Part shown: piece after piece, positions 2,893 through 5,893 of the stretch
Position numbering within the stretch: position 1 is the first letter of the stretch
How the letters are laid out: every line of letters begins with the position of its first letter
From: a virus
Length of the DNA: 39,794 nt
IMG/VR virus record: IMGVR_UViG_3300044822_000062
Span: 1-39,794 of that record
Strand: one strand, 5' to 3'
Position numbers and translations under genes: made by a program
Notes under the pieces: generated by a model
The model's input: the letters and a program-made list of their open reading frames with translations, nothing else
Databases searched by the model: none
What the model was told of the DNA's origin: nothing

Positions 2893-2947
2893 CGGCATCA
2901 CCCTGCTATTCGGCTGTGTGGCAATCCTGAAGAGTAAGAGCGCTTGA
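2870..2947 (+). CDS. Possible 25-aa membrane peptide at the operon end
   Basis: The ORF (MDVLVGLSGITLLFGCVAIL, then a short Lys/Ser tail) is a hydrophobic helix with a positive C-terminus. It overlaps the preceding gene by 23 bases and the convergent glycosyltransferase gene by 42 bases. The ribosome-binding site is poor (GAAAG). It is listed because its composition matches the other tiny membrane proteins of this operon; it could be a chance ORF. Confidence 0.3.
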   Translation: MDVLVGLSGITLLFGCVAILKSKSA

Positions 2948-4285
2948 GCGGTTGGCCACAGGATAGGGGACAGTGGGCACCGGCTTATCTAGGAATGCAC
3001 ACAGTTTCGACCATCCTGGCTTATCCATATCCATCACCAGCAGGTCACTGCGTCCCTTAAAGTACTCGCGCACTTCCGTATTGTGCCGGCGATAGCGCTC
3101 TAGGAACACCAGCGCATCGAAGTCCTTGGTGCCGTATAGGGCCGCATGGAGCTGGTTGGAAATGGGGTATATGTCCCACAGATGCCTAGTCGGATTGTGC
3201 CGCCGGTCCCATAGCTTCTTGACGCTCGTCAGCCAATCGACCTCATCTCGTACGGTCAGGATGAACTTGGAATTGGGATAGGCTATGTCCAATTGCTTGT
3301 AGAGCAGCGGGATGGGCAAGTCAGAGAGCGCATAGAACTGCTCGAGTGTGTTAGAGCGGCCGAGTGCATTCATCTCGTACCAGATCTGGGGTGCCTCGCC
3401 GGTACCCCAGTGCAAGCTATCCAGCCCTAGGATCTGTAATGCTTTGTGCAGGGAAGTTGTCGCAGTCTTGTGCAGCCCTATCCCGAACACGCGGGTGGGC
3501 AAAGCCGACAGCTCGATAGGGGTTGGGTCGAAGTTGCGGTACACCGTTCCCATGCCGAACTTGCCGAAGTTAACCACCGTTTCGGTGCGATCCTTCAGGA
3601 TCTGTACCTGATCGCCGTTCTCATAGAGCGCTTGCGCTTCCGGGTACTCCTTAAAGCGTACTGCGGCATTGTGATTGATCGCGTTCAGGTACTCATTCGG
3701 TATGTAGCGCATCGAATACCCAGAACGCTGGAGCCTGAAGTTCAGGCAAATGTCCTCGCGCCCCCAAGTCGCAAAAGCCTCGTTATAGCCGCCCATCTTG
3801 ACGAAGGCACCCGCCCAGATAGCTAACCGTCCCGCATAGCCACGCGCGGGCCTTAAAGCCCCGTGGGGCAGACTTTTGATCAACTGGTAGTTGGGGCACA
3901 TGAAGATGCCAGGACGTACCCCAGGCTCTCTAAATGCGTCTGCGATGTATTGGGAGAAGCCAGGGCCGCCACTGTTATCTGCATCCATCGTGACCAGGAT
4001 GTCAGCGCCTTCGAGAATGCCGCACCGAGCCGCCATGTTTTTGGCGTGGCTGATGTGGAAGGGTGCCCGACCGTTGTGGTAGGTGTATACCACCAGCCGG
4101 CCGCTGTCGATATCGTTGCCGTGAAACATCGCCAGATAGCTCGCCAGATCGTCCTGGCTATCGTAATCAAGGACTACGCAGACACTGTTCGGGTAAGAAT
4201 CAGCCAGGTTATGCGGTAAGGTCTTTTTGAGGTGATCCAATCGACCCTTGCATGTGGTCACATGAGCGATGCGCGGGAGTTTCAC
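2906..4285 (-). CDS. Glycosyltransferase-sulfotransferase fusion protein
   Basis: The protein has 459 residues from GTG 4285, which overlaps the Rz stop (GTGA); a TTG at 4294 is an alternative. The N-terminal half is GT-A-like. It has VTMDADNSGG (DxD metal-binding, about residues 100-107) and GGYNEAFATWGREDI (about 165-179), which matches the C-terminal galactosyltransferase motif GGxxExFxxWGxED. The second half, from about residue 265, opens with GIGLHKTATTSLHKAL, the PAPS 5'-phosphosulfate loop of sulfotransferases, and has SKFILTVRD (about 340-347) where the 3'-phosphate site is expected. The likely role is adding a sugar and a sulfate to a glycan, acting in the cytoplasm. The target could be host envelope polysaccharide or a virion component. 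It lies last in the late operon, after lysis genes, a common place for accessory (moron) genes. Confidence 0.8.
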   Translation of the reverse strand: MKLPRIAHVTTCKGRLDHLKKTLPHNLADSYPNSVCVVLDYDSQDDLASYLAMFHGNDIDSGRLVVYTYHNGRAPFHISHAKNMAARCGILEGADILVTMDADNSGGPGFSQYIADAFREPGVRPGIFMCPNYQLIKSLPHGALRPARGYAGRLAIWAGAFVKMGGYNEAFATWGREDICLNFRLQRSGYSMRYIPNEYLNAINHNAAVRFKEYPEAQALYENGDQVQILKDRTETVVNFGKFGMGTVYRNFDPTPIELSALPTRVFGIGLHKTATTSLHKALQILGLDSLHWGTGEAPQIWYEMNALGRSNTLEQFYALSDLPIPLLYKQLDIAYPNSKFILTVRDEVDWLTSVKKLWDRRHNPTRHLWDIYPISNQLHAALYGTKDFDALVFLERYRRHNTEVREYFKGRSDLLVMDMDKPGWSKLCAFLDKPVPTVPYPVANRSSALTLQDCHTAE

Positions 4286-4713
4286 CGCGGCCAAGCCTGA
4301 ATCAATGCCCCGAGTTGTTCGGCATCGCGGGAGCAGGCTTCGATATAGGCGTCAAGAGCTTGTTCAATTCCAAGAGCGCCTGGGGCGAGCGCGGGGATAT
4401 CGCCAGCTCTGCCGGGATCGGCTGTGGCTTTGGGCACGGGACAGCTTGCAGTATTGGCGTACTTGAACACCCGAGTACCGATATCGAGAGCGATAGGATC
4501 AATAGGCTGCGCTTCATATTTAGCCACCACTTGATTGATTCGATCCAATTCAGTTTGGGCCGAGGCCCTTTCTGCCAATACCGCTTTCGCCGTATTCTGC
4601 GCCTGGCTTGCCTCTAAACTGGTTAACTCGGATTTTCCCCTGAGAGTTCCTAAATAAAATCCACCGCCCAATAGAGCGAGCACCAGAACTACAATCAGGA
4701 CAATCCGTATCAC
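4282..4713 (-). CDS. Rz: Inner-membrane spanin (Rz-like)
   Basis: The protein has 143 residues from GTG 4713, overlapping the previous TGA. Residues 2-22 (IRIVLIVVLVLALLGGGFYL) are a signal-anchor. They are followed by a long helical periplasmic region with coiled-coil character (SELTSLEASQAQNTAKAVLA, then ERASAQTELDRINQVVAKYE). The topology, the size and the embedded Rz1 lipoprotein gene identify the i-spanin. Together the pair disrupts the outer membrane after endolysin action. The GT-sulfotransferase start overlaps its stop. Confidence 0.85.
   Translation of the reverse strand: MIRIVLIVVLVLALLGGGFYLGTLRGKSELTSLEASQAQNTAKAVLAERASAQTELDRINQVVAKYEAQPIDPIALDIGTRVFKYANTASCPVPKATADPGRAGDIPALAPGALGIEQALDAYIEACSRDAEQLGALIQAWPR
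4302..4517 (-). CDS. Rz1: Outer-membrane spanin lipoprotein (Rz1-like), embedded in Rz
   Basis: This 71-residue ORF lies wholly inside the Rz-like gene in another frame. It starts MKRSLLILSLSISVLGCSS, a lipoprotein signal peptide whose Cys17 would be the lipidated residue. The mature part is Pro-rich (CPKPQPIPAE), as in Rz1. The embedded arrangement is the classic lambda Rz/Rz1 architecture. It would sit in the inner leaflet of the outer membrane and bind Rz across the periplasm to fuse the membranes at the end of lysis. Confidence 0.85.
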   Translation of the reverse strand: MKRSLLILSLSISVLGCSSTPILQAVPCPKPQPIPAELAISPRSPQALLELNKLLTPISKPAPAMPNNSGH

Positions 4714-5518: not shown

Positions 5519-5893
5519 TCAGTTCTCCACGATTTCAAGCGCATCCGCGACAGAGATGCTGGGGGAACAGTCGAGGTCGCTGCAAACGAACGCTAGATAT
5601 TCTGCGCTATTGTTCTCAGTCGGTGGCGCAAATTCGTAAATCATCTGCTGCAAGAGAAAGTGCCGCTCGGCATACAGGCGCAATTGGCGCTCACCGTCAG
5701 CCCAGCCGAGTTCGGGCGTTGCATAGTAGCCGATGCCGTCGGGATCATCGGCGGGATGCGTGGCATTCGGGCCATGACGCAGATCAAGCGGATTATTTCT
5801 CACCGTGGGTATCGCCCCCGGCACCCCATAGCCTTCCATCGTCGCCATAGCAATGGCGAGCTTGGTAGTACCGGGTGGGGGGATAAAGTTCAT
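5519..5893 (-). CDS. Endolysin-like peptidoglycan hydrolase (lysozyme-like)
   Basis: The 124-residue protein starts at ATG 5893, overlapping the previous stop (ATGA). LAIAMATMEGYG places a Glu at residue 20 as the probable catalytic acid. VRNNPLDLRHG, GIGYYATPELGWADGERQL and EFAPPTENNSAEYLAFV match a recurring phage lysozyme-like/transglycosylase fold with the NNPxxLR motif. It has no signal peptide, so export would need a holin. It could alternatively be a virion-associated muralytic protein, but the neighbours favour an endolysin. Confidence 0.7.
   Translation of the reverse strand: MNFIPPPGTTKLAIAMATMEGYGVPGAIPTVRNNPLDLRHGPNATHPADDPDGIGYYATPELGWADGERQLRLYAERHFLLQQMIYEFAPPTENNSAEYLAFVCSDLDCSPSISVADALEIVEN

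Follow-up and report, generated by a model that had tools for sequence, protein, structure and literature searches.

PAPS-type sulfotransferases encoded by phages have been reported for OM43 phages and for Synechococcus phage S-SRM01; they belong to a different Pfam family (Sulfotransfer_3) from the protein described here, the function of phage sulfotransferases was described as unclear, and fusion to a glycosyltransferase goes unmentioned in that report (PMC10580990). In bacteria, sulfation of LPS exists (PMC12445080), and the enzyme concerned, LpsS, is a Stf0-family protein which, unlike the fusion, carries no glycosyltransferase domain. Our search of the open-access literature found no paper on a glycosyltransferase-sulfotransferase fusion or on a phage APS kinase paired with a sulfotransferase, a weak absence, subscription papers being mostly outside the search. 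Here, sequence and structural-model analyses support the prediction that a phage protein joins a GT-A glycosyltransferase to a PAPS-type sulfotransferase in one bifunctional polypeptide, as the preliminary description of this DNA had proposed: the structure model matches both kinds of enzyme, the PAPS motifs are kept, and an APS kinase gene adjoins the fusion in relatives.

The window, the whole 39,794-nucleotide stretch of viral DNA that was analyzed (IMG/VR record IMGVR_UViG_3300044822_000062), carries the fusion gene at 2906..4285 as a real ORF. It lies on the minus strand, which had not been specified before, as do its domains and the lysis genes described below. The gene starts with GTG at 4285 and encodes a single polypeptide of 459 aa. 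The longest start of the ORF is a TTG at 4294 (2906-4294, 462 aa), from which residues are numbered here. However, the in-frame GTG at 4285 is the likelier start, and 459 aa the likelier product, because it forms a GTGA overlap with the TGA stop of the Rz-like gene in both the window and its closest relative, L002. Both Pfam matches of the protein, PF02709 and PF17784, exceed their curated cut-offs, and both families are matched by all 23 aligned homologues. No NCBIfam equivalog scored above its cut-off for the fusion protein (all matches fell far below), and its PHROG matches were weak and confined to the glycosyltransferase half. The dN/dS ratio is 0.04-0.13 in non-saturated comparisons and low in both halves where measurable, which shows purifying selection. 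Since both families recur in all aligned homologues under such low ratios, the ORF is not a chance one; with 24 distinct homologous fusions, a chance or artefactual ORF was ruled out.

The glycosyltransferase half occupies 3509..4276 (residues 7-262), as supported by PF02709 and Foldseek. Glyco_transf_7C (PF02709) matches residues 154-208 (E 5.8e-7, 29.5 bits; cut-off 23 bits), and the N-terminus of the protein is GT2-like. Structure prediction of both halves, proposed earlier as a check, returned GT-A enzymes for the first half and PAPS sulfotransferases, including the Cpz8-PAP complex, for the second. The Foldseek matches of the N-terminal half were heparosan synthase 2, chondroitin polymerase K4CP, PcManGT and GalNAc-T2. 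The motifs named in the preliminary description were found in place, DAD at residues 104-106, GGYNEAFATWGRED at 168-181 and GLHKTATTSL at 273-282. The first forms part of the DxD motif D104-A105-D106-N107 (3974..3985), which is invariant in 23/23 aligned proteins and probably binds metal and nucleotide sugar. The second (3752..3793) lies inside PF02709 and has a GGY-E-W-ED pattern, whose residues G168, G169, Y170, E172, W177, E180 and D181 are likewise invariant in all 23. The label "GT-A/galactosyltransferase-type" therefore holds for the GT-A part, in view of fold and motifs; "galactosyltransferase-type" is a Pfam label only, and sequence and fold do not fix the donor and acceptor sugars.

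The sulfotransferase half spans 2939..3499 (residues 266-452), as supported by PF17784, sequence matches in the PDB and Foldseek. Sulfotransfer_4 (PF17784) covers residues 268-452 with an E-value of 7.2e-38 (131 bits; cut-off 22.8 bits), and the PDB sequence matches were 5tiv, 9kf1, 4mua and 8y9p. Foldseek matched the C-terminal half to schistosome sulfotransferases, to Cpz8 in complex with PAP and to SgdX2, at E-values of 1e-8 to 1e-7 and target-normalised TM scores of 0.48-0.62. The AlphaFold model has a pLDDT of 78.6 and a pTM of 0.75 and is poor at residues 294-326. D325 (3320..3322), invariant in 23/23, aligns with the Asp of the schistosome "TTDLP" and is a candidate catalytic base, a role which we take over from the schistosome enzyme. 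The predicted 5'-phosphosulfate-binding loop, GIGLHKTATTSL (3449..3484, residues 271-282), has invariant G271, G273, T279 and L282, with K or R at K276 and with T277 and S281 each kept in 22/23 proteins. Moreover, both residues of the predicted 3'-phosphate-binding motif R349-x7-S357 (3224..3250) are invariant (23/23). These 5' and 3' PAPS motifs agree with the sulfotransferase motifs described in PMC11677658. A missing PAPS pocket was thus not encountered, the pocket being judged from motifs and fold matches rather than from a bound-ligand model, nor were clear homologues with another proven activity. We infer from sequence that both halves look catalytically active. That only one half is catalytic and the other a binding or scaffold domain could be argued from the poor model in the acceptor region of the sulfotransferase, but this is very improbable given that the active-site motifs in each half show little or no variation among the 23/23 aligned proteins, that dN/dS is low in each half where measurable, and that linkage to the APS kinase gene cysC favours a working sulfotransferase. 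As a separate observation, the member at L024:5983-7494 (same virus as L012) has a Cys/His-rich insert of ~46 residues in its sulfotransferase half, zinc-finger-like in appearance, which splits residues that are adjacent in other members.

A search for the fusion elsewhere, also suggested at the outset, revealed it repeatedly in viral contigs. Scans of these contigs gave 26 fusion loci; once repeats were removed, among them L028-L031 and L037, which represent a single virus, and once the window itself was counted in together with L050, a locus reached by starting from APS kinase, 24 distinct fusion proteins remained. Both halves were present at every contig match except L037, whose fusion is truncated at the end of its contig. 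The 22 other aligned members are 55-79% identical to the window protein, and L050 is more divergent. The carrier viruses are uncultured, on contigs of 5 to 265 kb with mostly unrelated neighbourhoods, and their terminases differ (PF03237 in 5/25 records, with terminase matches in different PHROGs). Among 50,697 phage records there was no fusion and one match to the glycosyltransferase half, and 72,556 plasmids contained single-half matches only. The 84,980 prokaryote genomes, scanned with short exact peptide patterns that could miss distant cellular fusions, yielded one match, L038, on a contig of 7 kb binned into a Methanoregulaceae MAG that bears the label SPRUCE. Its fusion ORF is the same as that of viral contig L032, which points to misbinning or a provirus as the likely explanation; L038 may be either a misbinned phage or part of an archaeal virus. 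The fusion therefore recurs in at least 24 uncultured viruses and is almost absent from cellular genomes. An origin as ordinary bacterial cargo was considered and is unsupported, the plasmids being without the fusion and the sole prokaryote match sharing its ORF with a virus. Trees of the two halves gave different partners for the window, L002, L006 and L016, but AU tests on the sulfotransferase half were not significant (p 0.09 and 0.14), leaving only a hint of half-swapping between relatives.

CysC is the APS kinase that makes PAPS, the donor required by sulfotransferases. Its gene lies downstream of the fusion on the same strand, within 0-1 kb, in 6/24 distinct fusions representing 5 lineages (L018, L020, L022, L025, L033 and L050, with L020 and L022 close relatives), a linkage absent from the preliminary description. 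In L020, L022 and L025 it overlaps the fusion stop (gaps of -8, -8 and -4 bases), and in L018, L050 and L033 the gap is 228, 460 and 988 bases; the CysC of L025 matches PF01583 at E 3e-56. Otherwise CysC is very rare in phages: it occurred in 5 of the 50,697 phage records, at least 1 of those being a bacterial assembly, and a pattern-based scan of 2.9 million IMG/VR contigs gave 108 matches. Fisher tests of the linkage gave p < 1e-17, with backgrounds that are lower bounds and rows that are not independent, and it is the effect size, not the p-value, that carries the weight. Because the PAPS motifs are kept and CysC follows the fusion in relatives, PAPS-dependent sulfation is strongly favoured as the chemistry of the fusion. 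The window itself lacks CysC, and its phage would accordingly depend on PAPS supplied by the host. Viruses also pair the two activities in a second way, without a fusion: at L109:1671-2207 and L110:3175-3711, a sulfotransferase ORF that has no glycosyltransferase half (E 5.7e-33 with the profile of the sulfotransferase half) lies near a viral APS kinase gene.

In the window, the fusion is the last gene of the late operon, which comprises virion and lysis genes. Its GTG overlaps the stop of an Rz-like spanin gene (4282..4713; phrog_1327, E 9.4e-4), in which an Rz1-like ORF is embedded (4302..4517; phrog_3198, E 0.0023), and an endolysin-like gene of the same lysis module lies upstream (5519..5893; phrog_873, E 9.8e-9). 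The two spanin matches are weak and of Rz/Rz1 type, in keeping with the earlier placement of the gene behind the spanins, and beyond the fusion no minus-strand gene with a recognisable match was seen. The view of the fusion as cargo, last in the late operon, is borne out for the window and L002 but fails for the family: the fusion stands beside a helicase and a DNA polymerase in L021, a replication initiator in L015, a terminase in L032 and L034, capsid-region genes in L001 and L006, and a protease-like gene in some other viruses. The window virus has P22-type head genes, and among isolated phages its closest relatives have Rhizobium (by TerL, 56%) and Xanthomonas (by capsid, 53%) as hosts. 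No tRNA was found in the window, nor any match to integrase family PF00589, a search that covered this family only, in a record that may be incomplete. Two other features of the neighbourhoods were observed. A papain-fold protein of ~270 aa (phrog_19005, no Pfam match), absent from the window, lies at most ~2.5 kb from the fusion in 11 loci (L001, L016, L018, L019, L020, L022, L024, L025, L027, L032 and L033; e.g. L032:3441-4271), and its model is closest to xylellain (3ois). At 1-306 of the window, short low-complexity repeats are encoded (of DALDA or GVAGVEG type, depending on frame), which run in frame into a DUF6745 gene (307-1041) and may be an assembly edge.

These surroundings bear on what the enzyme modifies. 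Cytoplasmic glycosylation and sulfation of a structural protein of the phage, altering virion charge, stability or recognition, would fit the position at the end of the late operon, the capsid-region neighbours in L001 and L006 and the terminase neighbours in L032 and L034; glycosylation of mycobacteriophage virions is known, according to work cited in PMC12619734. We regard virion decoration as a less likely possibility, since the virion genes of the carriers differ and none travels with the fusion in neighbourhood comparisons, three homologues have membrane tails, and the fusion has replication genes as neighbours in L015 and L021. Those same replication and DNA polymerase genes could instead point to DNA hypermodification, in which a modified base would be glycosylated and sulfated and phage DNA thereby shielded. 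Phage glycosyltransferases can modify DNA, and PMC10829341 attributes systems based on sulfotransferases to phages, with reference to Iyer 2013. Nevertheless, this is quite unlikely: the thymidylate-synthase-type hydroxymethylase (PF00303) is absent in 19/21 records, including the window, and the membrane tails again argue against it. No Tet/JBP base oxygenase was matched in 21 records, a result shared by the control genomes.

An acceptor of another kind, a host small molecule, lipid or peptide, is suggested by Cpz8 and SgdX2, which act on natural products and are, among bacterial proteins of solved structure, the nearest relatives of the sulfotransferase half, and by a methyltransferase gene located after the fusion in L028 and L036. 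It is unlikely, as the glycosyltransferase half resembles enzymes acting on polysaccharides or proteins and no biosynthetic cluster surrounds the fusion. The methyltransferase genes themselves (Methyltransf_24; L028:7368-7949, with PF13578, and L036:7343-7972) overlap or abut the fusion in two distinct viruses at 60% identity and may represent a further tailoring step.

Among the roles offered in the preliminary description, namely alteration of host surface polysaccharide, superinfection blocking and decoration of virion proteins, a change of the host surface is favoured, on evidence that is indirect. PAPS is a cytosolic donor, so the acceptor has to be accessible from the cytoplasm, and the inner membrane is pointed to by C-terminal transmembrane helices in three homologues (L033, L034 and L035). 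In addition, the isolated phages PBR31 and RHph_N2, which are related to the window virus, carry GDSL-type esterases just after their lysis genes, near the same slot, one of which was labelled by its authors as a possible O-antigen modification protein. Because of these transmembrane ends, the P22-type heads and the post-lysis esterases, a host envelope glycan is favoured as the acceptor. We consider it about evenly balanced that the fusion is a bifunctional enzyme acting on a membrane-linked envelope glycan of the host (an O-antigen, LPS core or capsule precursor). The GT-A half would transfer a sugar from a nucleotide-sugar donor to the glycan, and the sulfotransferase half would move sulfate from PAPS onto that sugar or its neighbour, producing a charged, sulfated cap. 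Progeny or rival phages might then no longer adsorb to the infected cell or its debris, and the APS kinase of some relatives would raise the PAPS supply. Reaction order, acceptor and benefit are what we infer. Several findings count against this reading: most homologues, including the window protein, have no transmembrane helix; the fusion lies among replication or packaging genes in some viruses; the esterases of PBR31 and RHph_N2 could be tail-associated; and the poorly modelled residues 294-326 are the presumed sulfate-acceptor side.

Some phages, then, probably build sulfated sugars. The wider picture, in which our belief and our doubt are of similar size, would be a virus-specific family of bifunctional enzymes that often has an APS kinase beside it and forms a compact sulfoglycan module recoating the host envelope or the virion, two or three enzymes providing PAPS supply, sugar transfer and sulfation during infection. 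One phage sulfotransferase family is connected with sulfated sugars by its conserved glycosyltransferase partner domain and by the adjacent APS kinase gene, which together suggest a testable three-step pathway. If this is true, phages are able to alter the charge of glycans on the bacterial surface, a potential means of preventing adsorption that is undescribed in the literature searched, and the fusion would offer a compact enzyme for making sulfated glycans.

The proposed outcome, an altered surface glycan, is akin to O-antigen conversion by phage genes of the P22-type gtr kind, and the window carrier itself has P22-type head genes; a gtr-type cassette with a small flippase and a bactoprenol glycosyltransferase was not noticed when the neighbours of the fusion were compared. 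The N-terminal half shares the GT-A fold, the DxD motif and the GGY-E-W-ED pattern with K4CP, heparosan synthase 2, GalNAc-T2 and beta-1,4-galactosyltransferase 1, its fold matches having 12-17% identity. In K4CP and heparosan synthase 2 the partner is a second glycosyltransferase domain, whereas in the phage protein it is a sulfotransferase. Correspondingly, the C-terminal half is alike in sequence and fold to the Sulfotransfer_4 enzymes Cpz8 (9kf1/9kf2), SgdX2 (8y9p) and schistosome SULT-OR (4mua and others), with which it has the 5'-phosphosulfate loop and the R-x7-S motif in common. These solved enzymes are single-domain proteins, whereas the phage protein is virus-borne and has a GT-A half joined to its sulfotransferase. 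Each of the two halves comes from a family already known, and it is their combination that is new.
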